This document shows, one piece after another, positions 2,407-41,202 of a stretch of 41,202 nucleotides of DNA. A model generated the notes under the pieces. That model saw only the letters and a list, made by a program, of their open reading frames with translations, was not told the origin of the DNA and searched no databases. Within the stretch, counting starts at the first letter, position 1. Each line of letters begins with the position of its first letter. The stretch is from a virus, in the IMG/VR virus record IMGVR_UViG_3300031251_000052, positions 1 through 41,202 of that record; one strand, written 5' to 3'. The translations under genes were made by a program, and so were the position numbers.

Positions 2407-2729
2407 CGCTCGACATCGAACAGGCCGCTGCGTACCTGCGGCTTCACCCCCACACGGTGCAAGCGCGCGCGAAGGCGGGTATTATTCCGGCGTCGAAGCC
2501 GGGGAGGCGCTGGGTGTTCATCCAGGCCGAGCTTGAGGAGTATTTGCGGTCATGTCGATCTATAAGCGTGGTGAAACGTGGTGGATCTATCTCGTTCATC
2601 ACGGACAGCGAATACGCCAGTCTGCTCAAACCGACGACAAGCAGGCGGCGCAGCGCCAACACGACGAGCTCAAAGCGAAACTCTGGAAACGTCGCCATGT
2701 TTCCAGCGCGACCTGGCGTGAGGCCGTAG
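2403..2729 (+). CDS. Excisionase-like helix-turn-helix protein
   Basis: Encodes 108 residues from a GTG start. Residues 3-50 have the HTH_17/excisionase pattern (DIEQAAAYLRLHPHTVQARAK, then PGRRWVFIQAELEEYLRS), as in MerR-type winged helices and AlpA/Xis proteins that bend DNA at attachment sites. The C-terminal half (about residues 51-108) overlaps the integrase gene in another frame for 178 bases and is Ser/Arg-rich, so it may add little. Its location immediately before the integrase supports a role in excision or integrase control. The direct role is inferred. Confidence 0.7.
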   Translation: MTLDIEQAAAYLRLHPHTVQARAKAGIIPASKPGRRWVFIQAELEEYLRSCRSISVVKRGGSISFITDSEYASLLKPTTSRRRSANTTSSKRNSGNVAMFPARPGVRP

Positions 2730-3511
2730 CGGCATGGCTCAAGGCGGCGCCGCGTGATGATGCCGACAAATACCGGCTGAGTTCGCTTGATGTTGAGGAC
2801 GACGCCCTGCTGCATGAAATGACCGCGGGCGACTTCCTGACCGCCCTTGCCGACAAGTCGCCGGCCACGCACAACCGATACGTCAATCTTATTTCAGCGA
2901 TCCTGAACCTCGCCAAGCTGCGGGGCTGGCTTGATGCGGTTCCGGCGATCGAGCGCCGAAAACTCCCGCCCGCCACCTTTCGCTGGCTCACGCGCGCCGA
3001 ATGGAAAAAGCTCGAGAAGGAGTTACCCGCCCACCTGCTGCCGCTTGCCCGGTTCGCCGTTTATACCGGACTGCGGCAATTCAACGTGACGCACCTGCGC
3101 TGGGAGTATGTGGATATGCGCCGGCGCACCGTCACGATCCCGCCCGGCGAGGCCAAGGCCGGCAAGGTCATCAGCGTGCCGCTGTCGGACGCGGCGATCG
3201 GCGTGCTCAGAAAACAGGCCGGCGAGCATGAAACGTGGGTTTTCCCTTACGAGGGTCATCCGCTCGGCCAGATCAAGGCCGCATGGGGCAAGGCATGTAA
3301 GCGCGCCGGGCTCACCTGCCGTTGGCACGATCTGCGGCACACGTGGGCATCATGGGCGGTCCAGGCCGGCGTTCCGCTGCCAGTTTTGCAACAATTAGGG
3401 GGCTGGGCGAGCTATACTATGGTTCTCCGTTACGCTCATTTATCTCCTGAGCACCTGCGCAAATGGGTGAATGTGGGCCACAAAAAGCGCCACAGGGCGG
3501 CTAAAAAGTAG
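2552..3511 (+). CDS. int: Tyrosine-type site-specific integrase
   Basis: Encodes 319 residues. An N-terminal SAM-like DNA-binding region (about 50-140) precedes the catalytic domain. The active-site set is visible: R175 (TGLRQ), K205 (AKAGKVISV), H259-x-x-R262 (HDLRHTW), W285 in the His/Trp position (LGGW) and nucleophile Y294 (RYAHL). The family cuts and joins attP and attB. The gene ends 28 bases before a tRNA-derived attP-like site, the usual arrangement for this class. It overlaps the excisionase-like gene, so the two are probably co-transcribed. All catalytic residues are present, so it should be active. Confidence 0.95.
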   Translation: MSIYKRGETWWIYLVHHGQRIRQSAQTDDKQAAQRQHDELKAKLWKRRHVSSATWREAVAAWLKAAPRDDADKYRLSSLDVEDDALLHEMTAGDFLTALADKSPATHNRYVNLISAILNLAKLRGWLDAVPAIERRKLPPATFRWLTRAEWKKLEKELPAHLLPLARFAVYTGLRQFNVTHLRWEYVDMRRRTVTIPPGEAKAGKVISVPLSDAAIGVLRKQAGEHETWVFPYEGHPLGQIKAAWGKACKRAGLTCRWHDLRHTWASWAVQAGVPLPVLQQLGGWASYTMVLRYAHLSPEHLRKWVNVGHKKRHRAAKK

Positions 3512-3831: not shown

Positions 3832-4461
3832 CTACGCAGCCATCGCTCGCGCCCCAAGCCCGAGCAGGTAGCGCGAAATGTGATGCTCCCGAAATACGGT
3901 CAAGTCGCCCGGCTCGGCGCCGCCGTGAATCTGCGCCGGCTCGATCACGTGGCAAAAGATGCCCGGCGCGAACGGGACGAAGGTCACCGGGTCGCGCTCG
4001 TTGCGGTAGGACTCGGGATGCGTGCCCGACAGGCAAACGGTATCGCGCAACTCCTCGCCGCCGGGCCGCGGGCAGCCGAACACCGTGACCTGGTGGGCTG
4101 GCGCGCCCGCTTTGGCGAACAATCCGGCCAACAGCATCGCCCGCGCGGCACCTAAACTGTGCCCGATCAGCGCCACCTTGCCGGTGATGGCCTGCTGAAT
4201 CTCGGCGTAGGCGTCGTCGATCCCGATGGCGAAACCGGCGTGTACCCAGCCTAGAATCGGGTGATGGGCGGGTATTGCGGCCGAATCCCGCGCCCAGTCA
4301 ATCCCGACCTTGGATCCGCGGCAGATGAAGGCGTCGATGCCGTTGATCTGGCGGTGCGCGATTACGACGTCATCGCGGGTCCAGTAGTCATCCCACGCCG
4401 ATTCGTCCGCGCCGTAGAGTTCGGCGCATAGGTTCGCGCAGGTTATGGCGTCGAGGATCAT
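3832..4461 (-). CDS. Class 3 lipase / esterase of the lysis cassette
   Basis: Encodes 209 residues starting MILDAITCANL, coupled to the lipoprotein gene by an ATGA overlap. It has the alpha/beta-hydrolase nucleophile elbow GHSLG with Ser102, a candidate acid Asp157 (NERDPVT) and a candidate base His193 or 194 (EHHISRYL), the order of the lipase class 3 family. FGCPRPG follows the elbow, as usual in these enzymes. There is no signal peptide. As the last gene of a late operon after endolysin, holin and lipoprotein, it may attack membrane lipids during lysis. That role is inferred. A homologue with the same neighbours lies at 38985-39635. Confidence 0.85.
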   Translation of the reverse strand: MILDAITCANLCAELYGADESAWDDYWTRDDVVIAHRQINGIDAFICRGSKVGIDWARDSAAIPAHHPILGWVHAGFAIGIDDAYAEIQQAITGKVALIGHSLGAARAMLLAGLFAKAGAPAHQVTVFGCPRPGGEELRDTVCLSGTHPESYRNERDPVTFVPFAPGIFCHVIEPAQIHGGAEPGDLTVFREHHISRYLLGLGARAMAA

Positions 4462-5009
4462 TGCGCTTTGATCGCCGCCGCAGCCGCGCCAAGCCCAGCA
4501 GCACCGGGCGCCAGCAGCACGTTGCCCTTGATGCCGGCCAGTCCGACCAGTTTGTTGAATAGCCCGACAACGGCGGCCGTTTCCTGCGCGGCCAGGCTCG
4601 CGCAATTCGCCTGAATGTCGGGCGGTATCAAGCTCCCCTGCGAATTCATCGCATCACTGATTTCCAGCAGTTTTTCCTTTTCGCTGACGATGCCCTTCGG
4701 GGCGGTTTCGTTCGAACTCGATGCCGTGACTGCGTTGAAATGGACAAGCAGCGTGTCGTAGCACGCCCCGCGATCGGCGGCGAGTTTGGCGAGGCTCGGG
4801 TCTTTGGCTGCGGCCGACGCGGCTTTGGCGCGGGCGCTGGCATCCTGCAGGTCGGCAACGACCTTGGCGAGCAAGCCGGTTTGCACAACCGGCGCTTCGG
4901 GGGCGGCTGTTGCGGCCGGCGCGGGTTTCGATACTTGCGCGCTCGCGCACGCGGCTAGCAACATGGTGGCAGCGACATACGCCGGAACGAGCTTTACGAT
5001 GTTTTTCAT
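4458..5009 (-). CDS. Lysis-cassette lipoprotein
   Basis: Encodes 183 residues. A signal sequence (VAATMLLAAC) ends in a lipobox with Cys at about residue 20, so the mature protein should be lipid-anchored. After an Ala/Pro-rich linker comes a helical body with two further cysteines (GACYDTLL, DIQANCASL) that could form a disulfide in the periplasm, then an Ala/Gly-rich, mildly hydrophobic C-terminus. It overlaps the holin-like and lipase genes as ATGA. A clear relative lies at 40063-40623. No Rz/Rz1-like spanin pair is seen, so this protein may take part in outer-membrane disruption, possibly with the lipase. That is speculation. Confidence 0.8.
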   Translation of the reverse strand: MKNIVKLVPAYVAATMLLAACASAQVSKPAPAATAAPEAPVVQTGLLAKVVADLQDASARAKAASAAAKDPSLAKLAADRGACYDTLLVHFNAVTASSSNETAPKGIVSEKEKLLEISDAMNSQGSLIPPDIQANCASLAAQETAAVVGLFNKLVGLAGIKGNVLLAPGAAGLGAAAAAIKAQ

Positions 5010-5311
5010 GATGTCCCTTTCTGTTTGATGAACTTTGCAACGAGAGCCGCAACAGCACAGGCGGCGGTGAGTTTGTGCAGCACTGAACCGCCCACGTATT
5101 GCGAAAGCTCCGGCGCGTAGGCGGGCAACACTTCTGAGAGTCCGGCGAGCGCACCCGTCGCGGTGATCAGCCAGCTCGACCACTCGCGCCAGATCGTGCG
5201 CCAGTTGTTCGCCAGCCACTTTGCCCACCAGGGGGCGTCGTCGGGAAACGGCGTCAGCGGTTGCGTGGCGTCGGGGTCGAGTTTCGGTGAACCGTCTGCG
5301 GGCTCGCTCAT
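5006..5311 (-). CDS. Holin-like small membrane protein
   Basis: Encodes 101 residues. A Pro-rich N-terminus leads to the aromatic motif DDAPWWAKWLANNW, then two hydrophobic stretches at about 47-62 and 78-93, ending in AKFIKQKG. The layout (Trp-rich entry, two membrane helices, basic tail) resembles phage proteins of the DUF7940 type found in holin positions. It sits directly after the endolysin gene with an ATGA overlap. The related protein at 40661-41026 keeps the DDAPWWA motif. Holin function is inferred from size and position. Confidence 0.65.
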   Translation of the reverse strand: MSEPADGSPKLDPDATQPLTPFPDDAPWWAKWLANNWRTIWREWSSWLITATGALAGLSEVLPAYAPELSQYVGGSVLHKLTAACAVAALVAKFIKQKGTS

Positions 5312-5757
5312 GATTGCATCCCTTGTTTGAATTCCGCTTGTTCAGCCAGTCGGCGGCGCAGTAGTCCTGCGACCTCTTTGCCGCCGCATTTGTCCCAACG
5401 GGGGAACTGCGCTGCAGCCCCGTCAAAATCCCCCGCGTTCAGCAGCCGCCAGAGCGTTGACGATTCGAGTCTGTGCACGCCGAGGTTGAAACCGAAATCC
5501 ACCAGCGCGTCGAATTCGCCCTGTGCGAGCTTGGCTAGAATGGCCGGATTCAGATCGCGGTTGATCGCGTCGGCGACGTACTGAATATCGCCGTAGAGCC
5601 ATTCGTCGGCCTCGGCTTGCGTGCAGGTCTGCCCCTCGTACACGCCGAACGTATGGCCGTAGCCTATCGTCCACGTGCCGCCCTGATCTTGGTAAGCGAT
5701 TAACTCGCAGCCCTCGAATTGCTGCGTCAGTTTTACGCCATCCTGCGAGTAGTTCAT
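5308..5757 (-). CDS. Endolysin, GH24 lysozyme
   Basis: Encodes 149 residues. The GH24 catalytic triad is present with the expected spacing: Glu15 (QQFEGCE), Asp24 (YQDQGGTW) and Thr30 (TIGYGHT). The region around LVDFGFNLGV and the C-terminal LLRRRLAEQ also fit T4/lambdoid-type lysozymes. The enzyme hydrolyses the glycan backbone of peptidoglycan. No N-terminal signal or SAR helix is visible, so export should depend on a holin, in line with the neighbouring membrane proteins. It overlaps genes on both sides as ATGA. Confidence 0.92.
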   Translation of the reverse strand: MNYSQDGVKLTQQFEGCELIAYQDQGGTWTIGYGHTFGVYEGQTCTQAEADEWLYGDIQYVADAINRDLNPAILAKLAQGEFDALVDFGFNLGVHRLESSTLWRLLNAGDFDGAAAQFPRWDKCGGKEVAGLLRRRLAEQAEFKQGMQS

Positions 5758-5942
5758 TTTCTCCCGCCCGACAAAGTATTTTTTGCAAGCGATGCGATAG
5801 CCGCTGCGAGAGAGGAGTGCCCGATCTCTTTTCTGATTTCCTCGATCTCGTTTCTCAGGCGCCGCAATTCATAGATGACGCCAACATACAATGCAGCGAT
5901 GAGCGCGCAGATGATTCCGATGAATGTATTGCTTTCGGTCAT
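5754..5942 (-). CDS. Small membrane protein with coiled coil
   Basis: Encodes 62 residues. One transmembrane helix near the N-terminus (FIGIICALIAALYVGVIYEL) is followed by a charged helical segment (RRLRNEIEEIRKEI). The layout fits an inner-membrane protein with a short soluble tail, such as an antiholin or an inner-membrane spanin fragment, but it is much shorter than Rz proteins. It overlaps the endolysin gene by ATGA. No family name is assigned. Confidence 0.6.
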   Translation of the reverse strand: MTESNTFIGIICALIAALYVGVIYELRRLRNEIEEIRKEIGHSSLAAAIASLAKNTLSGGRK

Positions 5943-6226
5943 CGACGCGCCTCGATCAGCCGGTCAAGTTTCTGATTGATGTTCGCGAGCGAAGTGTCGA
6001 TGCGCGCCTGATAGCGCAGCGCTTCCTCGTCCTGTCGCCGGTCGGTGTTGCTCTGCACGGGCGACATGCGCTCAAGCCCGTCGATGCGCTTGTCAAGGTT
6101 ATTCCACGCGGCCAACATCGCGCAGAAGGCGACGACGATGCTGACCAGATCGGCAATCGAGATTTCCTTGCTGATCTTCCAGCGTTCCGGTGCGCGGCGT
6201 TCGTCGCCGTCGTAGCCTTTGTCCAT
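5939..6226 (-). CDS. Small membrane protein with C-terminal coiled coil
   Basis: Encodes 95 residues. A charged N-terminus is followed by a single hydrophobic helix (ISIADLVSIVVAFCAMLAAW) and a long heptad-like region ending IDTSLANINQKLDRLIEARR. Proteins of this layout are common just upstream of phage lysis genes and are often called holin-like or tail-associated membrane proteins. It overlaps the next gene by ATGA. Its role in lysis is an inference from context. Confidence 0.65.
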   Translation of the reverse strand: MDKGYDGDERRAPERWKISKEISIADLVSIVVAFCAMLAAWNNLDKRIDGLERMSPVQSNTDRRQDEEALRYQARIDTSLANINQKLDRLIEARR

Positions 6227-8279: not shown

Positions 8280-9882
8280 CCGAGCTGTAAAGCAACGCGC
8301 GCAACGCCTTGTTTGCTGGCAATGCGCTTGAATCGTTGGCCGCAGTCGCGCCCTGCTTCAACAATAATTTTTTAAGCGTTTCACTGTTCAGTGCGGAATT
8401 GGTCGCACGCCCTGCTGCCGCGCCAACTGCCAAGGCCGGCACGGTTCCGGTAGCCAGCGCAGCGGGGGCGGCAACCGAGCCGACCATCACCCGCTGCATC
8501 GCGCCGTGCGGGCTTTCTCGAGTCTTGACGAACTGCGACGCAATGTCGGCCAAGTCCTGAAGTTGCGGGTTGTTGATGTTTTTCATGTTCGCCAGGCGCG
8601 CGAGCGAGACGCCGCCATCCGCACCGTTCTGCGCGATGCTTTCGATGTCCATCATGTTGCCGTATTGCTGGCGAACGTTTTTGAAGGCGGCGGCCTTATC
8701 AGGCCCGAGCGAGCGATCCAGCGCGCCCATCAGCGATTTCTTCAGGTCGCGCGCGTAGTAGGCTTCCGGCGCGTTGCGGTTGCCGATGCGGTCGAGCGTT
8801 TTCTTGATGTTGTAGGCGGCCTGCCCGTCGATCTCTCCATTCGCGCCGACCTTGCTCATGATCTCGTCAACCTGCTTGCCGATGATGCGCGCGCCGTCCG
8901 CGCCGAGTTCTTTGTCAGCGGTCTGCAGATGCGAGACGAGATCATTCACTAATTCATCGTCAACCTTGACCCTGTTGCTTTTGAGCGTCACTTCGAACTT
9001 ATCGCCAAGCGCGGTCTGTGCTTTACGCAAAGCGCCGGTTATATTGTCAGAGTCCTGCCCGAACGTGCGCGATACCGCACGGTCAAGCTGCGATTTCATC
9101 AGGTCTTCAGTGCCGGCCCGACCGCTCAACGGAACGTAATTCAACGATGCGGCAACCGCGTTCAGCGGCTTGCTGTTGACGATGCGATCGGCAGGAATAT
9201 CAATACCGAGACCCTTGGCCTTCTGATACAGCGCCGAGACTTCCGGCGATACTTCGGGCGCTACGGCGTTGCGGATGACTCCGCCGACCGCGCCAGCAGC
9301 CTTGGCTACCGCAGGCAATGCGCCGCCGATAGCAGCGCCAGCAGGCGCGTTTGCGGGGTCTATGAGGCCAGCAGACGCGCCGCCGACCGCAGCGCCCGCA
9401 CCGACGCGCGTTGCCATATCGGCAACCTTTCCGGCCACGGTGGCGGCCGGCGCGCTATTGAGCGTAAATCCGCCGCTCTCAAGGGCTGCAGCGAGCTTGG
9501 GCGCGTATTGCGCGATGGCGGGTATGACGGCGCCAGCCGCGCGCGCGCCCTTCGCCAGAACGCCGCCAGCGCCTGCTGTGCCAGCAACGTCCGCACCAAG
9601 TTCCCCGCCTTTGAACGCGAGCGATTCGGGGTCGGCGTTGTCTTTGAAAAATCCAGCGAGCGATGCCTTGCGCTCAACGTTCGTGCGCCCGGTCAATCCC
9701 GTGGCATCGAGAGGACGCATAAGCGTTGTGCCGATGTCGGACGCGCCCTTGAGTGCGCCCATAGCAATGTTCTTGTTGGCATTGAGATAGCGGTCAACAA
9801 GCCCATGCGATTCTGCCGGCGCAATGGTAAAACCGCCGGTTTTTGGCGGTTCGTCCGCTGGCGGCCCTATCGTGAATCCCAT
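8257..9882 (-). CDS. DNA-ejection / internal virion protein (P22 gp16 position)
   Basis: Encodes 541 residues from the ATG that overlaps the upstream stop (TAATG); another ATG lies at 9900. The N-terminus carries short repeats (MGFTIGPP, GGFTIAP). Residues about 80-220 are unusually Ala/Gly-rich (GADVAGTAGAGGVLAKGARA) and could insert into membranes. The remainder is helical and charged. It is the third of three large virion genes just before the tailspike, the place of gene 16 in P22, whose product is ejected to help DNA cross the envelope. The function is inferred from order and composition, not from a motif. Confidence 0.65.
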   Translation of the reverse strand: MGFTIGPPADEPPKTGGFTIAPAESHGLVDRYLNANKNIAMGALKGASDIGTTLMRPLDATGLTGRTNVERKASLAGFFKDNADPESLAFKGGELGADVAGTAGAGGVLAKGARAAGAVIPAIAQYAPKLAAALESGGFTLNSAPAATVAGKVADMATRVGAGAAVGGASAGLIDPANAPAGAAIGGALPAVAKAAGAVGGVIRNAVAPEVSPEVSALYQKAKGLGIDIPADRIVNSKPLNAVAASLNYVPLSGRAGTEDLMKSQLDRAVSRTFGQDSDNITGALRKAQTALGDKFEVTLKSNRVKVDDELVNDLVSHLQTADKELGADGARIIGKQVDEIMSKVGANGEIDGQAAYNIKKTLDRIGNRNAPEAYYARDLKKSLMGALDRSLGPDKAAAFKNVRQQYGNMMDIESIAQNGADGGVSLARLANMKNINNPQLQDLADIASQFVKTRESPHGAMQRVMVGSVAAPAALATGTVPALAVGAAAGRATNSALNSETLKKLLLKQGATAANDSSALPANKALRALLYSSANRQSSP

Positions 9883-26083: not shown

Positions 26084-26796
26084 TGCATCGCCTTTCGGAT
26101 GCCCGCCCAATCTTCGCGGATCGCGTTTTGAAAAGCCTGCTCCCAATCGGCATACGCCTTGCCGTTCGCCTTGGCATAGCCGACGAAGTGGATCAGGTGC
26201 GCTTTGACTTGGGTCTCGCCCCGCTTCTCAAGCCAACCCCGCATAGCAGGGGAAAATTCAGAGCCGAAGCCCTCGGGGATTTGCGTCTTTTTTTGCTTAC
26301 TGCCGTTGACACGAACAGGAGCCGCGCCAGCGGCGGGGGTGTCTTTGTTTTTTGTAGTTGCAGTTGCAGATGCTTCTGCAGTTACATGTGCTACATCCGC
26401 TACACTTGCTACTTCCGGCGACAAATTGCTACATTCAACTACATCTTTATTTTTCTTGGCATTTCTCTGATCTGAAATGCGGATTCTGTCGGCCTCGTTC
26501 TTTTGCGCGCGGTTTACCATATCGCGGTATTTGGCATAGTTCACGATCAACCAACCCCACGGACGTCGGTCGTCCATCAAAATAATCCTGCGCCCCTCCT
26601 CGCCCGGAGTGCGGGTGTACGGGTCGGGCTCGGACAGGATGCCGATGCCTTTGGTTATGATTTCCAGCGGTATCGACGTGCGCGCGGCCATCGCCTGCGG
26701 GGTCATGTCCAGAACGCCGTCCTGGTTGCACAGAACCAGCATCTGCTGCAGCGTGACGATGGCCTCCCAATGGCCGTATAGCGTGCCTTCATACAT
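26080..26796 (-). CDS. Replication-associated protein with missing canonical start
   Basis: Encodes 238 residues from the ATG at 26796, but the frame continues upstream as IYGKIFDS before that Met, which looks like natural protein sequence. ATT at 26820 lies after GGGGAGA and could be a rare start. The N-terminal domain (EGTLYGHWEAIVTLQQMLVL, MAARTSIPLEIITKGI) looks like a winged helix. A Thr/Ala-rich linker (about 115-150) leads to a C-terminal region (FGSEFSPAMRGWLEKRGETQ, then ADWEQAFQNAIREDW) typical of phage replication proteins. The start may have been altered when the endonuclease gene inserted upstream. Confidence 0.7.
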   Translation of the reverse strand: MYEGTLYGHWEAIVTLQQMLVLCNQDGVLDMTPQAMAARTSIPLEIITKGIGILSEPDPYTRTPGEEGRRIILMDDRRPWGWLIVNYAKYRDMVNRAQKNEADRIRISDQRNAKKNKDVVECSNLSPEVASVADVAHVTAEASATATTKNKDTPAAGAAPVRVNGSKQKKTQIPEGFGSEFSPAMRGWLEKRGETQVKAHLIHFVGYAKANGKAYADWEQAFQNAIREDWAGIRKAMQ

Positions 26797-26822: not shown

Positions 26823-27260
26823 CTATCTCCCCGTGAAATTCTGCAAATACGCGATCGCTGCGCGCAGAATTTCTGTGTCGTCATTTGCGTGTCCAATGAC
26901 GAAATTGCACTTACAGCAAAGGAGGCCGCGAACCGTTTTTGTTGCATGGTCGTGGTCAACGAAAAAATGCTTACCTGGTCCGTTTGGCTTATCGGTTCGG
27001 CAGATGGCGCACGCGCCACCCTGCTTTTCAAGCATCAGGTTGAATTGTTCGACGGTGATTCCGTAAGTTCCTTTGAAATGCGCGCGTCTACGATTTGCGG
27101 TCAATCGGTTACGATCAGATTTTTGATACCTCGCAACGGATGCACGATAGCTTTCAGGGTTTGCCTTTCTCCACTCTCGGCATCTGCGTGCCATGCAGGG
27201 CTTACACATGGTCGGATGCTTGCCCGCGTGTTCGCCGCGGCAATCAGTGCAAATCTTCAC
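26823..27260 (-). CDS. Endonuclease VII-like HNH nuclease
   Basis: Encodes 145 residues from a GTG two bases after the upstream stop. Early Cys pairs (CTDC, CKPC) are followed by a CAIC...HFFVDHDHATKTVRGLLC core (about 85-120) and a nearby second Cys pair (CCKC). This is the Endonuclease_7/HNH pattern of T4 endonuclease VII relatives, which resolve branched DNA or act as mobile nucleases. Its base composition is more A/T-rich than its neighbours and it breaks an otherwise ATGA-coupled operon, so insertion as a mobile gene is likely. Confidence 0.85.
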   Translation of the reverse strand: MKICTDCRGEHAGKHPTMCKPCMARRCREWRKANPESYRASVARYQKSDRNRLTANRRRAHFKGTYGITVEQFNLMLEKQGGACAICRTDKPNGPGKHFFVDHDHATKTVRGLLCCKCNFVIGHANDDTEILRAAIAYLQNFTGR

Positions 27261-27261
27261 G

Positions 27262-27759
27262 CTATGCCGCTCCCAAGTATTTCGTTATGACTTCAATCGC
27301 CGCGGGAGCCCCGTAGCACACGCACACCTTCAAACCCTGCGCGCGCAGCAGTTCGTGACACTCGGCCTGCACATCGTTCTCGCGTCCGTCCAGCGCCTTC
27401 AGTTCAATCCGTAGGCCATGAAATCCACCGCGGGCGACGTCGAGGCCGTAGTCGGGATAACCCGCCCTGCTCCCCTCGGCTTTCATCTTGGCGCCCACCG
27501 CCGGATGCCGGTGTCCGCCGTTCGGTATGGCGTGGAATAGGCGCGGGTCGAGTCCCATCATCGGGAAATTGAAATCCACCCACAGGGTCAGGGAGACGGC
27601 TTCTTGATGCTCGCTCGGGGGCTTGGGCTTGTGCGGACCTTTGGGGCGGCCGATTTTTTTCTTGCCCGAGCTGCCGAGGTCAACCGTGCGCGGGCTGTGC
27701 GCGGCGCGGTTCTTGGCGCTCAATGATTCGACCTCGGCGGCGCTCATCAGGCGAGTCAT
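27262..27759 (-). CDS. VRR-NUC domain nuclease
   Basis: Encodes 165 residues. After a basic N-terminal tail (GKKKIGRPKGPHKPKPP) comes a PD-(D/E)xK core: Asn80 in IPNGGHR, Asp103 (GYPDYGL), then E119-x-K121 (RIELKALDG), with DVQAECHELLRAQG after it. This is the VRR-NUC fold, often found in phage recombination or replication modules. It overlaps the upstream winged-helix gene by ATGA. It probably cuts branched DNA, but the substrate is unknown. Confidence 0.85.
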   Translation of the reverse strand: MTRLMSAAEVESLSAKNRAAHSPRTVDLGSSGKKKIGRPKGPHKPKPPSEHQEAVSLTLWVDFNFPMMGLDPRLFHAIPNGGHRHPAVGAKMKAEGSRAGYPDYGLDVARGGFHGLRIELKALDGRENDVQAECHELLRAQGLKVCVCYGAPAAIEVITKYLGAA

Positions 27760-28190
27760 ACCATCCCCAACCGCTTGCGCGCGATCTCATAGAAAGCATT
27801 GGCCTTGTCCTCGGTCACAATCCGCCGCGCGGTTGCAATGCTCATGGGCGGCATGTAGCCTGTGAATGGATGGATGGCAATAAGGTCACGCGCCGCATGC
27901 GATGCAACACCCGCAGGGAGGTCGGGCTTCCCATCACGTAAGTAATGCGGCGCGTGTTTGATTCGTAAAGGGTGCCGGCCATTGATCGGTTCAAGTGATT
28001 CGAGCGTGCCGGCGTCCAGCAATTCCTTGCAGCGCCCGCAGATTGCATTGATCGGCATGCCAGTGAGCGCGACAAGCTCCTGCCGTGTGTGCTGCGCGCC
28101 TGGTTTGAATGCGGACAGCACGCGCGCTTGCCCTGCGGTTATGTCAACGCGGGCGAAGGCGTCGCGGCTGGTGGCGTCGTAGCCGCTCAA
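27756..28190 (-). CDS. Winged-helix-like regulatory protein
   Basis: Encodes 144 residues. Residues 15-70 (TAGQARVLSAFKPGAQHTRQ, LVALTGMPINAICGRCKELL) resemble a winged-helix DNA-binding domain with a following beta wing (GTLESLEPINGRHPLRIK). The C-terminus contains a helical segment ending ANAFYEIARKRLGMV. It sits between a small acidic gene and the nuclease gene, all ATGA-coupled. A role in replication control is plausible from context. Confidence 0.55.
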   Translation of the reverse strand: MSGYDATSRDAFARVDITAGQARVLSAFKPGAQHTRQELVALTGMPINAICGRCKELLDAGTLESLEPINGRHPLRIKHAPHYLRDGKPDLPAGVASHAARDLIAIHPFTGYMPPMSIATARRIVTEDKANAFYEIARKRLGMV

Positions 28191-30335: not shown

Positions 30336-31268
30336 ATGGCCCAGCCGCAAATCCAGAAGCCCGAACCGCTCGCGCAGAAGCCCGAGCCGCTCATCGCCTA
30401 CAAGGGTTTCAATCCCGATTGGACGTGCCGCGATTTCAAATACACGGTCGGAGAAACCTATACCGAAGATGCCGCCGACCTGTGCAAGCGCGGATTCCAC
30501 GCCTGCGAATACCCGCTGGACATTTTCAATTACTACGAGCCAACCGGACAGATGGCGCTCGTTGAATTGACGGACGTCAGCGACAAAAAAGACGACGACA
30601 GCAAGCGCGTCGGCAAGTCGATCACCATCAAAGCATCGCTGACGATTCCGCTGCTCGTTGCGGCCGCAATCGAATTCACGACGCGATTCTGCGAACCAGC
30701 GAAGGCGCAACACGCAACCGGCTACAGCTCGGCGAGCAGCGCAACCGGCGACAGCTCGGCGAGCAGCGCAACCGGCTACAGCTCGGCGAGCAGCGCAACC
30801 GGCTACAGATCGGCGAGCAGCGCAACCGGCAACAGATCGGCGAGCAGCGCAACCGGCGACAGCTCGGCGAGCAGCGCAACCGGCGACAGCTCGGCGAGCA
30901 GCGCAACCGGCAACAGATCGGCGAGCAGCGCAACCGGCGACAGCTCGGCGAGCAGCGCAACCGGCGACAGCTCGGCGAGCAGCGCAACCGGCTACAGCTC
31001 GGCGAGCAGCGCAACCGGCGACAGATCGGCGAGCAGCGCAACCGGCTACAGATCGGCGAGCAGCGTTAAAGGCAAAAACGCCGTCGCCATGAATATCGGA
31101 ATTCATGGTAAGGCGATGGCAGGTAAAGACGGCGCAATCGTTCTGTGCAATCACGATGACGATTACAACATTCGCCACATTCGCGCCTCGAAGGTTGGCG
31201 AAAACGGAATCAAGCCGAATGTGTTTTATGTGCTAAACGATGCCGGCGAATTCGTGGAGGCGGCGTGA
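30336..31268 (+). CDS. DUF7666-like protein with 13-fold nonapeptide repeats
   Basis: Encodes 310 residues from MAQPQIQKPEP. Residues 15-125 (LIAYKGFNPDWTCRDFKYTV, then CKRGFHACEYPLDIFNYYEP and MALVELTDVSD) match DUF7666-like domains. Residues 127-243 are 13 copies of the nonapeptide ATG(Y/D/N)(S/R)SASS. Such repeats resemble those that form YadA-head-like beta-rolls. The C-terminal part (NAVAMNIGIHGKAMAGKDGA) continues the roll-like pattern. The protein probably folds as a head domain on a repeat rod. Cellular role is unknown. A relative with a different tail lies at 32225. Confidence 0.75.
   Translation: MAQPQIQKPEPLAQKPEPLIAYKGFNPDWTCRDFKYTVGETYTEDAADLCKRGFHACEYPLDIFNYYEPTGQMALVELTDVSDKKDDDSKRVGKSITIKASLTIPLLVAAAIEFTTRFCEPAKAQHATGYSSASSATGDSSASSATGYSSASSATGYRSASSATGNRSASSATGDSSASSATGDSSASSATGNRSASSATGDSSASSATGDSSASSATGYSSASSATGDRSASSATGYRSASSVKGKNAVAMNIGIHGKAMAGKDGAIVLCNHDDDYNIRHIRASKVGENGIKPNVFYVLNDAGEFVEAA
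30714..31064 (+). repeat. Thirteen 27-bp tandem repeats (in frame)
   Basis: Exactly 13 units fill 351 bp. Each unit begins GCAACCGGC and varies only at two codons (TAC/GAC/AAC and AGC TCG/AGA TCG). All units keep the frame. The array is open in other frames as well, which explains long false reading frames on both strands. Confidence 0.95.
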
Positions 31269-32224: not shown

Positions 32225-32806
32225 TTGAAAACAGCATGGCATTTTGTCGGAAAGACTCTGCGCGATGGTCAGCCAATTCCGAAGGATGGCGAGTGGCTTG
32301 TGCATGATGGTGAAGTCAGAATTTGTGCGTCAGGACTTCACGCGAGCTTTGACCCGTTCGATGCGCTTGAGTATGCGCCAGCAGAAACGCTCTGTCTTGT
32401 CGAAGTCGATGACATCGTAGAGCAGCAAAGCGATAAATTGGTATGCCGTCGCCGCAAAATCATTGCGCGTATGGATGCAACAGAACTCTGCCGCTATTTC
32501 GCCCGTATGCAAGCCCTGTCGGTCGTGCATCTGTGGGACGCGCCTGATGTTGTGCTTGATTATCTGATGACCGGCGACGAGTCTATAAGGGACGCCGCAA
32601 GGGACGCCGCAAGGGCCGCCGCATGGGAAGCCGCAAGGGACGCCGCAAGGGACGCCGCATGGGCCGCCGTAAGGGCCGCCGCAAGGGACGCCGCAAGGGC
32701 CGCCGCAAGGGCCGCCGCATGGGAAGCCGCAAGGGACGCCGCAAGGGACGCCGCAAGAAAAGACTTTAACGCTCTAGTTCGCGATTGCTTCGAGGATTTT
32801 CTGTAA
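32225..32806 (+). CDS. DUF7666-like protein with Ala-rich tetrapeptide tail
   Basis: Encodes 193 residues from a TTG that follows AGGAGA. Residues 1-115 (TAWHFVGKTLRDGQPIPKDG, then CASGLHASFDPFDALEYAP and CLVEVDDI) align by eye to the DUF7666-like part of the protein at 30336 (GFHACEYPLDIFNYY, ALVELTDV). Residues 122-177 are 14 tetrads of the type RDAA/RAAA/WEAA, which should form a long Ala-rich helix. A short helical end (FNALVRDCFEDFL) follows. Function unknown; the two related proteins share a head and differ completely in tail architecture. Confidence 0.75.
   Translation: MKTAWHFVGKTLRDGQPIPKDGEWLVHDGEVRICASGLHASFDPFDALEYAPAETLCLVEVDDIVEQQSDKLVCRRRKIIARMDATELCRYFARMQALSVVHLWDAPDVVLDYLMTGDESIRDAARDAARAAAWEAARDAARDAAWAAVRAAARDAARAAARAAAWEAARDAARDAARKDFNALVRDCFEDFL
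32588..32755 (+). repeat. Fourteen 12-bp tandem repeats (in frame)
   Basis: The array consists of variants of AGGGACGCCGCA, with GCC and TGG/GAA substitutions, all kept in frame. It encodes the Ala-rich tail. The reverse strand is open across it too. Confidence 0.9.
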
Positions 32807-35642: not shown

Positions 35643-35998
35643 CCTTCACTAAAAAACTGCGTGAGTTGCTGAAGGGGGCGACGAAGGGGCCGTGGGGTGC
35701 TGGCTACGCTCATTGGGGAAAGTATCAATTATATGGTTGTTACGGAAATGGCGGATTCAACATTGCTGAAATGACCGCCTACGTTCAGCCGGAGTTTAAA
35801 GAGGCCGACAGAAAGAACATAGAGTTTATCGCTTTCCTCGCCAACCACGCCTCGGAGATCGCAGCGCTGGTGGAGGCGGCAGAACAGTTGCTTAAAGAGG
35901 TCAATTACACACCGGGATTAGCTGACAACGATATACGTAAGGGTTCCGGCAACAAAATTGCAGATGCCTTGGCCGCGCTCGAAGAAAGGAAGGGATGA
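35639..35998 (+). CDS. Ea22-like protein
   Basis: Encodes 119 residues. LRELLKGATKGPWGAGYAHW and FIAFLANHASEIAALVEAAE match the Ea22-like family layout (a W-containing N-terminal motif and FIAxxANxxxEIxALxE). It shares two near-identical DNA blocks with the partial gene at the left edge. The N-terminal region between the blocks differs between Ea22 family members, indicating that the family diversifies by block exchange. Function is not known for the family. Confidence 0.7.
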   Translation: MTFTKKLRELLKGATKGPWGAGYAHWGKYQLYGCYGNGGFNIAEMTAYVQPEFKEADRKNIEFIAFLANHASEIAALVEAAEQLLKEVNYTPGLADNDIRKGSGNKIADALAALEERKG

Positions 35999-36264
35999 TG
36001 AACAAAACAATGGAAATGAATTTTAGCCAGTTTTGCAGCATGTTCGGAAAAACTGAAATTGAGTGTGGAGTTGCCGAGGTCGTAAACAAGTCGATGTGGG
36101 ACGGATGCAAACTTGCGGATGTGCATTTCGACAAGGGCGACTTCAAAGAGCCAGCCTTGTTCGATTATCTGCAACGATACGACTGGCTAACCGAAAGCCA
36201 CGGAAAGTATCGCCTTGACGCGGCAGCGGTCAAACGTGTCCATCAACGCTATCCTAATCTGTGA
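35995..36264 (+). CDS. Hypothetical early protein
   Basis: Encodes 89 residues; the ATGATGA overlap couples it to the Ea22-like gene. The protein (FSQFCSMFGKTEIECGVAEV, then FDYLQRYDWLTESHGKYRLD) looks like a compact helical domain with a possible wing. A regulatory role is conceivable. No family is recognised. Confidence 0.5.
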   Translation: MMNKTMEMNFSQFCSMFGKTEIECGVAEVVNKSMWDGCKLADVHFDKGDFKEPALFDYLQRYDWLTESHGKYRLDAAAVKRVHQRYPNL

Positions 36265-36779
36265 GCCAAGCCATGACCACACAGAAAGAAGCGGCGCTGA
36301 CGGATGAGATGGTGGATCGGTTGAACGCAGCAGCACTACCTGACCCACAGGACGAACGCGAGGTAATGCACGCTCCACTGTTGCGTGAAGCCGCCGCCGC
36401 AATCGTCGCGCTTGAGGAGCGGGTGCAACAGCGTGATGGGCAGATTGCGCGATTGCTTGAACAGCAAACTCGACTGATCGACGGTAGGCAAGCCGCCGAG
36501 CGCCAACTGGCCGAAGCGCGGGCGGAGATTGAGCGGTTGAATAAGGCTTGCGACGTATATGCAGGTGTAGCAAAGATTGAAACAGAAAAGCGTCGAGCAA
36601 TAGAACATTTTATTGATAACAATATGACGTTCTACGATGTTGACGCGGATTGGCCGGTAGAAGGTCACAACATTCCTGCGCTTGCTCAAGTAAGTAATCG
36701 AATTTGGTATCACGCGACTGACGATATTACCTCTTATCCATTTAGCAAATTAATCGACGCCACACGGGAGCAGAAATGA
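36261..36779 (+). CDS. Mosaic coiled-coil early protein
   Basis: Encodes 172 residues from a GTG, or 168 from the ATG at 36273. The beginning (MTTQKEAALTDEMVDRL) is shared with the gene at 175, and the coiled coil (about 60-95, ending ARAEIERLN) is shared with the gene at 552 at nucleotide level. The C-terminal 70 residues are unique and more A/T-rich. It continues the block-exchange pattern of this region. Function unknown. Confidence 0.6.
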   Translation: MSQAMTTQKEAALTDEMVDRLNAAALPDPQDEREVMHAPLLREAAAAIVALEERVQQRDGQIARLLEQQTRLIDGRQAAERQLAEARAEIERLNKACDVYAGVAKIETEKRRAIEHFIDNNMTFYDVDADWPVEGHNIPALAQVSNRIWYHATDDITSYPFSKLIDATREQK

Positions 36780-37387
36780 TAAGCGATGAACGGATTAAAG
36801 AGTTGTGCGGTTTAGCGGTTCACAATGGACACGCCTGCATTTGCTCGGTTATCAAGCAAGCCCTGCGCGAGCAGGAAACGAACGCAGCCCACTGTTGCCC
36901 TAAATGCAAAGGGTCGGGCGAGGTCGAGGGTAATATCCCTCATCCATTTAGCGGCGATCCACAAGACGACGAATGGGGAACGGTTCAATGTTCTGACTGT
37001 AAAGGAACTGGCGAGGCTGTCGGTGCTGCGCCCACGCAGAGGGTCGTGCCGGTTGAGCCGGATGACGCACTGTTAGCTGAGGTTGCCGTTATCGCTGGTG
37101 TATGGCCTGCAAGCGACAAGGAAAACGTGCCTTACGCAATACGGCAGGCAATTCGCAAATATCACAAAGCCATGCTCGCCGCCGCCCCTGCCACTGTGCC
37201 GGTTGAGCCGGTGGCGTGGATTCATTGTTCTCCTGAATTGTTAGCATCAGGGATAGATTGCGGAACGACTCCACGCAGACCGTGCGAGTGTGCAATAAAG
37301 GGTTCTCACGACCATCTAATAAGAATCGCCCACCCCGCCGACACCTTCCGTCGAGCGATTGAGCGCGGAAGTTTCAGCGCAGATTAA
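36776..37387 (+). CDS. Mosaic protein with DnaJ-type zinc motifs
   Basis: Encodes 203 residues. Residues 38-85 contain two CxxCxGxG motifs (CPKCKGSGEVEG, CSDCKGTGEAVG) like the zinc centre of DnaJ. Residues about 136-197 are encoded by the 185-bp repeat shared with the gene at 552. Only six residues follow before the stop, whereas the other copy goes on into a DUF551-like domain, so this gene may be truncated at the junction to the second unit. Confidence 0.6.
   Translation: MISDERIKELCGLAVHNGHACICSVIKQALREQETNAAHCCPKCKGSGEVEGNIPHPFSGDPQDDEWGTVQCSDCKGTGEAVGAAPTQRVVPVEPDDALLAEVAVIAGVWPASDKENVPYAIRQAIRKYHKAMLAAAPATVPVEPVAWIHCSPELLASGIDCGTTPRRPCECAIKGSHDHLIRIAHPADTFRRAIERGSFSAD
37181..37365. 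repeat. 185-bp perfect direct repeat, right copy
   Basis: Identical to 942-1126. Beyond 37365 the sequence no longer matches the left end; within 50 bases the gene set and base usage change. Confidence 0.95.
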
Positions 37388-38742: not shown

Positions 38743-38988
38743 CTACCCTACAACCTCGCCCGCCCGAACACCGGCAAACACCTGTTTAACGCGAACGCTG
38801 AATTTCACATTCCCGCCAGAATCGTCGAGGTGCCCCGCGCTCTCCACAATCAGGCACACTTCCGCCCCGGGGACCTTATCCATAGCCGCGAACAGGACGC
38901 CCCGAATACACTCCGGGACCCGAGGGAGGGTGCGTATATGGGCCTTTACGTCTTCCCGCCGTCCCGCCGCTACGATGTTCCAAGTCAT
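38743..38988 (-). CDS. Hypothetical protein after lipase
   Basis: Encodes 81 residues; the ATG overlaps the lipase stop (ATGA). MTWNIVAAGRREDVKAHIRT, VLFAAMDKVPGAEVCLIVES and GNVKFSVRVKQVF look like a compact alpha/beta domain seen in small phage proteins. The alternating charged strands suggest a ferredoxin-like fold. It is the last gene of the second lysis operon. Function unknown. Confidence 0.6.
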   Translation of the reverse strand: MTWNIVAAGRREDVKAHIRTLPRVPECIRGVLFAAMDKVPGAEVCLIVESAGHLDDSGGNVKFSVRVKQVFAGVRAGEVVG

Positions 38989-39635
38989 AGCGCCCACGCT
39001 CCCCGCGAGTCTACGGGACGCGCCGGGGTGCCGGCGAGGTAGAGGGGCATGTGGTGGCAGTGTAACGGCTCATGGTCATTCGGGTCCGGGGGCGTATAAA
39101 TCAGCGTATCCTGCACCGGCTTTATCCACTCCGGTATGAGGTGCGGGACGAGCGGCACAGGGTCATCCCCATTCCGGTAACACCGAATCGGCACGCCCGA
39201 GCACGCCAGCATCTCGCTCAGCGCATAAAACCCGGGCCGTGGGCACCCGAAGGTAATCACCGCGAGGGGATTGTATTCGTTCTTTATCATCAACCCCGCC
39301 AGTATCAACGCCTCCGCCGCCCCGAGGCTATGCCCTGTGACTACGGTTTTGCCGGTGTATTGCTTTATGAGGTCGAGCACCTCCATGTAGGCGTCCGGCA
39401 ATCCCCGGTAGAATCCGGCGTGAACGGTGCCCAGAGACTTCGTGTAGAGAGGGATGGCGAAAAAATCCCGAAGCCAATCCCCCGGCGTCGTGGACCCCCG
39501 GAACGCAAGCACCAGCACGTCCCCGAGGATACGGGCATACAAATACACCCCGAACTCGGACCACTGATGGTCCCACTTCGCGCTTACGTCATACGTGTCC
39601 ACGCAAACCTGCGCAGCGTCCTTGTCGGTTATCAT
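38985..39635 (-). CDS. Class 3 lipase / esterase of the second lysis cassette
   Basis: Encodes 216 residues from MITDKDAAQV, chosen because GGAGG lies before it. It has the AFRGST oxyanion motif near 44-49, nucleophile elbow GHSLG with Ser103, Asp158 (NGDDPVP) and a candidate His at 194-195 (LHCHHMPLYL). FGCPRPG follows the elbow as in the first lipase. The gene stands after a lipoprotein, holin-like and endolysin gene. The two lipases are clearly related but quite diverged, so their conservation suggests a real lysis or release function. Confidence 0.85.
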   Translation of the reverse strand: MITDKDAAQVCVDTYDVSAKWDHQWSEFGVYLYARILGDVLVLAFRGSTTPGDWLRDFFAIPLYTKSLGTVHAGFYRGLPDAYMEVLDLIKQYTGKTVVTGHSLGAAEALILAGLMIKNEYNPLAVITFGCPRPGFYALSEMLACSGVPIRCYRNGDDPVPLVPHLIPEWIKPVQDTLIYTPPDPNDHEPLHCHHMPLYLAGTPARPVDSRGAWAL

Positions 39636-39646
39636 CTCCAGCCTCC

Positions 39647-40060
39647 CTATCCGGCGTGCCCGGGCGGGATGCCCGAGCTGCCCACGAACCCGTGCCACGT
39701 GCACCCGGGTGGCGATAAAAGAATGGACGGGGATAGGACTAAATCATCCAGCCCCGTCCCGCTCACTACGGTCCAGCGGGAGGGGACCCCTGCGGAACTG
39801 ATACTGCCGCAGCCCTCCGGTATCTCCCGCCCCGCGAAGCTCACGAGCACGCTATGCGTCCCCACTGCGCCGCCGTTCTTCTCGTAGCAGAGCGGGCACA
39901 GGAACATAATGTCGTGCGCCTCCGCGAGGCTCTCCGCCAGCCGCCGGTAGCGGTGAACGCCGTCCGGAGACATGACCCCGTTGACGAAGACCCCGGGTGT
40001 GTGCTGCTCGATGTAGTTGAAACCGAGCCGCGCCTCCAGCTGGCGGAGAGGGTAGTGCAT
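39647..40060 (-). CDS. DUF6527-like zinc-binding protein
   Basis: Encodes 137 residues. The segments IMFLCPLCYEKNGGAVGTHS, GTGLDDLVLSPSILLSPPGC and TWHGFVGSSGIPPGHAG resemble DUF6527-type phage proteins, whose Cys/His pattern probably binds zinc. The gene lies between the lipoprotein and lipase genes in this unit and has no counterpart in the first cassette. Function unknown. Confidence 0.65.
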   Translation of the reverse strand: MHYPLRQLEARLGFNYIEQHTPGVFVNGVMSPDGVHRYRRLAESLAEAHDIMFLCPLCYEKNGGAVGTHSVLVSFAGREIPEGCGSISSAGVPSRWTVVSGTGLDDLVLSPSILLSPPGCTWHGFVGSSGIPPGHAG

Positions 40061-40062
40061 GG

Positions 40063-40623
40063 CTATTGCGCCCGGATTACCGCAGCCGCCGCCCCTACGC
40101 TCGCATTAAGCGGCGCAAGGACCGGATTGCCTTTCAGTCCCGCAAGGGTCGCAATCCGGTTCACGAAGTCCACCACTGCGGCCGTTTTCTGCGCCGCGTA
40201 GCTGGCACAGTTCGCCTGAATGTCCACAGGGATGAGGTTGCTGCTCTGGCCACTCAGTTGGTCCTTCAGCTCAATGCCCTTCTCTTCGAGGGAGAAGATG
40301 CCCTTGGCCGGAGTGGTCTGTGCTACGCCCTTCGTGAGGGCGTTTACGTGCGCAACGAGGGTGTCGTAGCACAGTGCGCGGTCCGCCGCCAGCTTCGCCG
40401 TCGAGGGGTCCGACGCAGCCGCCGCAGACGCCTTCGCCAGCGCCGATGCAGCCATTAAGTCCGTCACGAGCACCCCCGGCTCCGGTGCGAGTTGCGCCGA
40501 GACCGGAGCCTCAGCCGGAGCCGCTGTGGCAGCCGGAACCGAGGCGGGCTTCGAGACGGGCGGGGAGGAAGCACAGGCAGTGAGTAAGGCGGTAATTGCG
40601 AGAATGACGCTGAGGTGTTTCAT
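40063..40623 (-). CDS. Lysis-cassette lipoprotein, second copy
   Basis: Encodes 186 residues; AGGAGA precedes the ATG. A signal (VILAITALLTAC) ends in a lipobox with Cys near residue 17, followed by a Pro/Ala-rich linker and a helical body with ALCYDTLVAHVNAL, VDIQANCASYAAQKTAAVVD and an end AAAAVIRAQ. These match the first lipoprotein closely in order. It should be lipid-anchored and periplasmic. Persistence next to a lipase in both cassettes suggests that the pair works together. Confidence 0.8.
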   Translation of the reverse strand: MKHLSVILAITALLTACASSPPVSKPASVPAATAAPAEAPVSAQLAPEPGVLVTDLMAASALAKASAAAASDPSTAKLAADRALCYDTLVAHVNALTKGVAQTTPAKGIFSLEEKGIELKDQLSGQSSNLIPVDIQANCASYAAQKTAAVVDFVNRIATLAGLKGNPVLAPLNASVGAAAAVIRAQ

Positions 40624-40660: not shown

Positions 40661-41026
40661 CTACTTTTGGTCGCCGGGGGAGCCTTTGTTGCCTTCGTCC
40701 GGAGCCTCCCGGGGCACAACGCTGACTTCCTTCACCTTAGCAAGGCTCACAATCCGGAAGAAGATTGAGGCCATGAATACTCCCGCGAGGGCGTGCGGGC
40801 GGAGGGGAGCGGGGATGAGGTCAACGGCCCAGTCGATGACCTTTTGCTGCTGGTCTACCGGAAGCTGGGCCCAGACTTCGATTGCCGCCGCGCACAGTCC
40901 CGGCCACCAGACCGAGGCCCACTTGTAGGCTTCGTTCCAGTTCGCCACTAGCCATCTCGCCCACCATGGGGCGTCCGGGGGAAGGTCGGTGCTGCGCGTG
41001 CCGTTTATTACGGGTTGGTCACCCAT
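40661..41026 (-). CDS. Holin-like membrane protein, second copy
   Basis: Encodes 121 residues from MGDQPVING; AGGAGA precedes this ATG, and it overlaps the endolysin stop by eight bases. DLPPDAPWWARWLVANWNEA matches the aromatic entry motif of the first holin-like protein. Two hydrophobic regions (about 40-57 and 85-105) and a charged C-terminus follow. Holin function is inferred from context. Confidence 0.65.
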   Translation of the reverse strand: MGDQPVINGTRSTDLPPDAPWWARWLVANWNEAYKWASVWWPGLCAAAIEVWAQLPVDQQQKVIDWAVDLIPAPLRPHALAGVFMASIFFRIVSLAKVKEVSVVPREAPDEGNKGSPGDQK

Positions 41027-41202
41027 TGCTGTCTCCTGTCGTGTAGGTTGCGATGCCATTGGAATTAAAGTGTGCCGTGAGCACTCGGCGGCGGAGGGCG
41101 GGTGCGAAGGACGCGTGACACCAATCCCCCTCCTGTATCAGTTCGTCAAACGGGAGGCCGGAGGTGATGATCTTCTGGATGATGAGGAAAGGGGAGCCGA
41201 AG
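41019..41202 (-). CDS. M15 peptidase-type endolysin, C-terminal part (partial)
   Basis: Sixty residues remain, starting at the window edge with FGSPFLIIQKIITSGLPFDE and ending at the TGA at 41019. The motif LPFDELIQEGDWCHASF is the C-terminal metal-site region of the M15 (VanY-like) peptidase endolysins, where the final His binds zinc. These enzymes cut peptide cross-links in the cell wall. The second unit thus uses a different endolysin class from the first (GH24). Confidence 0.75.
   Translation of the reverse strand, partial: FGSPFLIIQKIITSGLPFDELIQEGDWCHASFAPALRRRVLTAHFNSNGIATYTTGDSNG

Follow-up and report, generated by a model that had tools for sequence, protein, structure and literature searches.

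How a phage might open the outer membrane of its host without spanins is the question raised by a 41,202-base virus contig (IMG/VR record IMGVR_UViG_3300031251_000052; hereafter the window, meaning the whole stretch of DNA that was analysed). A preliminary description of its first lysis cassette proposed that a lipoprotein and a class 3 lipase stand there in place of a spanin pair. In the main survey of spanins, no spanin was found in about 13% of phage genomes and an alternative route was asked about; 31 genomes had a lipoprotein gene with no i-spanin candidate, and a lipase goes unmentioned (PMC6139136). Our search of open-access papers found none that reports a class 3 lipase among phage lysis genes or a lipase-lipoprotein pair.

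Cassette 1 lies on the minus strand and begins with two small membrane proteins, one of 95 amino acids (5939..6226; by hydropathy a transmembrane segment at about residues 22–40, then a coiled-coil-like tail; phrog_24782, function not assigned) and one of 62 (5754..5942; an N-terminal transmembrane segment by hydropathy, possibly a holin or a short i-spanin-like protein). These are followed by endolysin 1, a GH24 phage lysozyme (5308..5757; PF00959, E 7e-41; phrog_7), holin-like protein 1 (5006..5311; PF25612, DUF7940, 8.6e-11; phrog_1356 holin, 1.2e-9), lipoprotein 1 of 183 amino acids (4458..5009; lipobox LAAC, Cys21, +2 Ala) and class 3 lipase 1 of 209 amino acids (3832..4461; PF01764, Ser102/Asp157/His193, without a signal peptide). 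The lipase is the last late gene and adjoins a convergent integrase (2552-3511). Lipoprotein 1, which alone among the ORFs of this cassette in all frames has a lipobox, contains a two-cysteine helical domain (4545..4871, minus strand) that was recognised by iterated HMM searches and belongs to no Pfam, PHROG or NCBIfam family. Its stop codon overlaps the lipase start by 4 bp as ATGA, and lipase 1 has no Shine-Dalgarno sequence of its own, so that translation of the lipase probably depends on translation of the lipoprotein. By inspection, a 103-amino-acid protein in locus L040 resembles the 95-residue protein.

The combination had been said to recur at 38985-40623 beside a different type of endolysin. 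Both genes are indeed present in this second minus-strand cassette, but they are not adjacent: lipoprotein 2 (186 amino acids, 40063..40623; lipobox LTAC, Cys17, +2 Ala; the two-cysteine helical domain at 40153..40467 by iterated HMM) is separated from class 3 lipase 2 (216 amino acids, 38985..39635; PF01764, 69 bits, 3.7e-19; with its own Shine-Dalgarno sequence) by a DUF6527-like ORF (39647..40060; a weak PF20137 match, E 0.16). Upstream are holin-like protein 2 (40661..41059; phrog_1356, 4e-7; DUF7940 at 24.7 bits, just under the cut-off of 27) and the C-terminal fragment of endolysin 2 (41019..41201), an open frame cut by the record end. The proposed difference in endolysin type comes from this 60-residue fragment, which is M15-like solely by an ExxWxH motif and matches nothing in the profile libraries searched. 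DUF6527-type proteins also lie beside a lipase or lipoprotein in L041 (6082-6477), L030 (4693-5082) and L050 (6532-6801); the family assignment is profile-confirmed only in L041, where the gene is upstream of the lipase, and is weak in the window and made by inspection in L030 and L050.

The two cassettes probably belong to two related phages and not to one. The terminase encoded in the record shares 70% identity with its counterpart in Xanthomonas phage PBR31 and 61% with the one in MW202573. Positions 1-1126 and 35836-37365 are diverged direct copies of one early region in interrupted order, with stretches of the former matching the copies at 35.8-37.4 kb at 92-100% identity, and the two ends of the record do not join as a circle. 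These features indicate one genome unit flanked by parts of a second, related yet distinct unit; the record is probably about 1.2 genome units from two related phages, either tandem prophages or a mixed assembly. A single phage with two lysis systems was rejected in view of the diverged duplicated flanks, and the best reading of the cassettes is as two natural alleles. The lipoprotein and lipase are kept between them, at 58% and 37-38% identity, respectively, while their surroundings differ; a closer relative of lipoprotein 1, at 81% identity, is found in L005.

The absence of an Rz/Rz1-like overlapping pair from cassette 1 was borne out by a scanner that looks in every frame for a type II membrane ORF that contains, overlaps or abuts a lipobox ORF. 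This scanner recovers the lambda Rz/Rz1, T7 18.5/18.7 and P2 LysB/LysC pairs, and in the relative MW202573 it finds, within the lysis cassette, an Rz of 173 amino acids with a nested Rz1 of 63. In the window it found no such pair in either cassette or anywhere on the minus strand, and its plus-strand matches at 26204 and 34027 fall within other genes. Only the two cassette lipoproteins pass a strict lipobox test in any frame of the 41 kb, and a search for a spanin among the membrane proteins at 5754-6226 found no o-spanin partner for them in any frame.

The lipoprotein might instead be a unimolecular spanin, a candidate that was rejected on sequence criteria. Like T1 gp11, which is of that kind, it has an N-terminal lipobox; unlike it, it has no C-terminal transmembrane segment, its low-confidence models are helical rather than beta-rich, and it has two conserved periplasmic cysteines, which are absent from all 58 unimolecular spanins (PMC6139136). 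The C-terminal segments of lipoproteins 1 and 2 reach best hydropathies of 1.56 and 1.31, with insertion energies of 5.6 and 8.8 on the Hessa scale, and are too polar for a membrane span, as judged by hydropathy alone.

The lipases themselves are clear members of their family, scoring 36.3 and 69.4 bits against PF01764 (cut-off 22). Across 54 homologues the catalytic columns are S102 in 54, D157 in 51 and H193 in 50, the serine lying in GHSLG, and the lid columns W-x-x-D are likewise kept (W56 in 49/54, D59 in 54/54). Lipase 2 matches the Rhizomucor miehei lipase (PDB 1tgl/4tgl) with E 5e-12, aligned across the lid and nucleophile region; the two share fold family, GxSxG, Asp/His triad and lid segment, and differ in that the window lipase is a phage product of about 210 amino acids without a secretion signal or propeptide. 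The substrates of fungal class 3 lipases are acylglycerols. An N-terminal hydrophobic signal is missing in 53 of the 54 homologues, and without an export signal the enzyme would need a holin to reach the envelope. By analogy with a canonical endolysin, we infer that it would stay cytoplasmic until holin action opens the inner membrane. The lipase gave no match in plasmids and no relative in bacterial genome contigs, and for the window lipases Pfam, PHROG and NCBIfam return only Lipase_3 or phrog_21992, or nothing, with no family of the LysB type. The predicted lipases of L063, L064 and L070 have late starts and unaligned catalytic Asp and His, and these genes may be split or frameshifted.

It is informative to examine how widely the pair occurs. 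Five lipases were used as queries in a pattern scan of IMG/VR; the resulting 64 loci, together with the window and named phages, came down to 58 non-redundant lipases after removal of near-duplicates and uncalled genes. In 15 of these 58 loci the gene immediately upstream of the lipase encodes a lipoprotein, whereas among genes distant from the lipase in those loci, a background made up mostly of non-lysis genes, the figure is 7 of 543 (p 1e-11). Lysis cassettes are generally rich in lipoproteins. Most of the upstream pairs have the 4-bp overlap; in L009 the order of the two genes is reversed and the overlap kept, and a further pair, in L041, escaped the lipobox rule owing to a proline within that motif. 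Roughly half of the lipase loci have neither a neighbouring lipoprotein nor the domain. The endolysins that adjoin the lipase belong to at least seven families (GH24, M15, Amidase_2, glucosaminidase, GH19, GH25 and DUF5675, the GH19 matches falling below the Pfam cut-off), so that the claim that the pair is conserved despite endolysin exchange holds outside the window. By inspection, some lipases have lipoprotein partners of apparently unrelated families (L024, L030, L032, BgManors32 and QDWS; L025; L050), and on a lipase tree the partner types are clustered yet have changed repeatedly, with 18 changes compared with 28 in shuffles. Most surveyed lipases lie within or beside holin and endolysin genes, in varied positions and gene orders. 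Those of L011, L044 and L046 are outside lysis cassettes, and those of P-SSM2, Cr-LKS4 and L011 are far from lysis genes. In L026, L028, L034, L035 and L057 the lipase is preceded by a small soluble helical protein of about 100-120 amino acids, with no lipoprotein.

Two isolated phages carry the pair, each with a 4 bp overlap: Burkholderia phage BgManors32 (lipoprotein 27700-28188, lipase 27059-27703) and Shewanella phage vB_Sb_QDWS (lipoprotein 8990-9454, lipase 8397-8993). In six frames of their complete genomes the only credible lipoprotein is that of the pair, the remaining lipobox matches sitting opposite annotated genes on the other strand. The QDWS lipase, like that of the window, is the last late gene, beside a convergent integrase. 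Hujiaoplasma phage zrk29-1 (L099, OP650936) is 99.9% identical to QDWS (L096, OK094664) over its full 47,902 bases; its record gives the host as a Tenericutes bacterium and is marked UNVERIFIED_ORG, and given this identity one of the two host assignments is probably wrong.

Across the same survey, the pair is found largely without spanins. A plausible spanin pair is present at 1 of the 58 lipase loci and in 6 of 10 lipase-free GH24 cassettes (Fisher p 1e-5), and restricting the loci to those with a recognised endolysin gives 1/17 against 6/10 (p 0.004); the control set in both comparisons is small, ten named-phage cassettes of a single endolysin family. The controls with a pair are PAJU2, MPK9, CRP-235, phi80, RcDora and pVa-2; a seventh match, in MW202478, was set aside on manual inspection, and the annotated spanin of VLCpiS13d went undetected by the scanner. 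Scanner matches at lipase loci were likewise discarded by hand where the putative i-spanin resembles a holin or a small membrane protein (L004, L005, L032, L058) or lies inside a structural or lipase ORF (L037, L038). The exception is L028 (8009-8356/8353-8709), which carries both a lipase and a spanin-like pair. The phrase "in place of" is thus apt in that canonical spanins are missing from nearly all cassettes with the pair, but it is not absolute.

The lipoprotein is the less familiar partner. Its domain, of about 95 residues, is common to both window lipoproteins and was traced by iterated profile searches to 16 proteins in lipase-bearing records; no Pfam, PHROG or NCBIfam model matches it. 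It is found in other lipoproteins (L005, L021, L022, L037, L040), in secreted proteins (L066, L067, L070) and as the C-terminal portion of holin-like membrane proteins (L036, L039, L049, L051, L053, L054, L078). Holin-like proteins of L077 and L079 carry such a C-terminal copy as well. The lipoprotein and holin-fused forms point to one periplasmic domain that is anchored differently in different lysis cassettes. The strongest eight members share two Cys, two Asp, two Ala and one Gly as invariants, and the C-terminus of many members is a hydrophobic Ala/Gly tail. Both window lipoproteins have Ala at the +2 position that governs outer-membrane sorting, and none of the 15 homologous loci listed has +2 Asp. 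Structure models of the lipoprotein and the domain, of low confidence (mean pLDDT 55 and 62), suggest a helical bundle, and Foldseek with the low-confidence lipoprotein model returned nothing significant. Close relatives of the window lipoprotein were found in no named phage or bacterial genome contig and in one viral contig, L005; tblastn found the domain in no named phage, searches with the partner lipoproteins of L040 and L024 returned only the queries themselves, and the QDWS lipoprotein matched in phages only itself and its duplicate record.

The domain also led to three further records, of which L078 has a lipase and L077 and L079 have none anywhere in their contigs; in the latter two the domain is fused to holin-like proteins, and no spanin pair is present in the stretches examined. 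Because it occurs without a lipase, the domain is not a dedicated lipase chaperone. The preliminary description had suggested a joint role of lipase and lipoprotein, with the latter as activator, anchor or chaperone. The recurrence of the pair beside many endolysins, the missing spanins and the retained triad and lid of the lipase speak for the joint role; an exclusive activator or chaperone role is not supported, given the lipase-free records and the half or so of lipases that are unpaired.

We tentatively favour, from the sequence evidence, the reading that the lipase and adjacent lipoprotein may form a module that disrupts the outer membrane by lipolysis and takes the place of spanins in scattered Gram-negative phages; it has a real chance of being right, if not quite an even one. 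A joint role is favoured by the association of the lipase with several lipoprotein families and by the gene coupling. Specifically, the lipase would accumulate in the cytoplasm and leave it together with the endolysin once the holin opens the inner membrane, after which it might hydrolyse outer-membrane glycerophospholipids from the periplasmic side. The lipoprotein, presumably exported early, would be held by its acyl chains in the outer membrane's inner leaflet, where its two-cysteine domain might dock or activate the lipase, or itself weaken the membrane. Together the two would replace the membrane-fusion step of spanins. A broader formulation, in which this is a third, lipolytic class of disruption, with a holin-released class 3 lipase recruited or activated by a co-translated outer-membrane lipoprotein and standing in for spanins in unrelated phages with various types of endolysin, is possible but more doubtful. 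Counted against the module are the split genes of cassette 2, the domain without lipase in L077 and L079, the spanin-like pair in L028, the unpaired half of the lipase loci and the lipases outside lysis cassettes. Furthermore, the end of the late operon beside an integrase is a usual spot for accessory genes.

Since the domain occurs without a lipase, the main rival, which stays strong even if we think it unlikely, is that the domain is itself a non-canonical spanin-like disruptor of the outer membrane, alone or with a membrane protein, and the lipase an auxiliary or operon passenger. This would accommodate the appearance of the domain as lipoprotein, secreted protein or holin-like C-terminal part, its Ala/Gly tail and the state of L077 and L079, which have the domain and neither lipase nor detected spanin pair. 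However, the tail is too weak as a membrane span, and an independent protein would need no 4-bp overlap with a lipase, a coupling seen in many phages and with different lipoprotein families. An improbable reading gives the lipase an accessory role outside lysis, in lysogenic conversion or host lipid use, with its gene placed at the late-operon end beside the attachment site. The positions in the window and QDWS, next to the convergent integrase, and the phage lipases far from lysis genes are consistent with it, but at most loci the lipase lies in or beside holin and endolysin genes and not only at the operon end, and with no export signal it would act inside the cell or after holin opening. 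Least probable is a separated two-component spanin with the lipoprotein as o-spanin and the 95- or 62-residue protein upstream of the endolysin as i-spanin: spanins are extremely diverse and can stand about 1 kb apart (PMC6139136), and both proteins, like the 103-residue one of L040, have the N-terminal transmembrane segment and charged helical tail for which they were examined, but the tails, at 43-59 residues, are in our judgement short for a periplasm-spanning i-spanin, the same filter finds no such candidate in the cassettes of BgManors32 and QDWS or in L021 and L037, and the lipase is left unexplained.

It is also worth considering the lipolytic module in light of known systems. With two-component spanins (lambda Rz/Rz1; SpaninDataBase, PMC6139136) it shares a cassette position after endolysin and holin and an outer-membrane lipoprotein; it differs in having no overlapping or nested i-spanin/o-spanin pair, an enzyme as the companion, and a lipoprotein of about 160 amino acids of predicted helix with two conserved cysteines. 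By analogy, mycobacteriophage LysB (Ms6, D29) is a functional counterpart of the putative lytic lipase, being a lysis-cassette alpha/beta hydrolase or esterase that attacks a lipid outer layer after the endolysin, whereas the window family is Lipase_3, with Gram-negative hosts and a lipoprotein partner. Likewise, the lysis cassette of psageB1-type Pseudomonas phages holds a GDSL lipase, a lipolytic enzyme in a Gram-negative setting whose esterase activity was measured in a fusion; it is of the GDSL fold family with a carbohydrate-binding module, and no lipoprotein partner is reported (PMC12173070). The lipase-lipoprotein module is a concrete, testable candidate route for spanin-less phages, and both isolated phages that carry it have named Gram-negative hosts; the analysis further brings to light a lipase family and a so far undescribed domain of lysis cassettes. 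Elsewhere in the window, arrays of 27-base and 12-base repeats (30632-31146 and 32550-32789) lie within plus-strand genes and encode repeated short peptide motifs.
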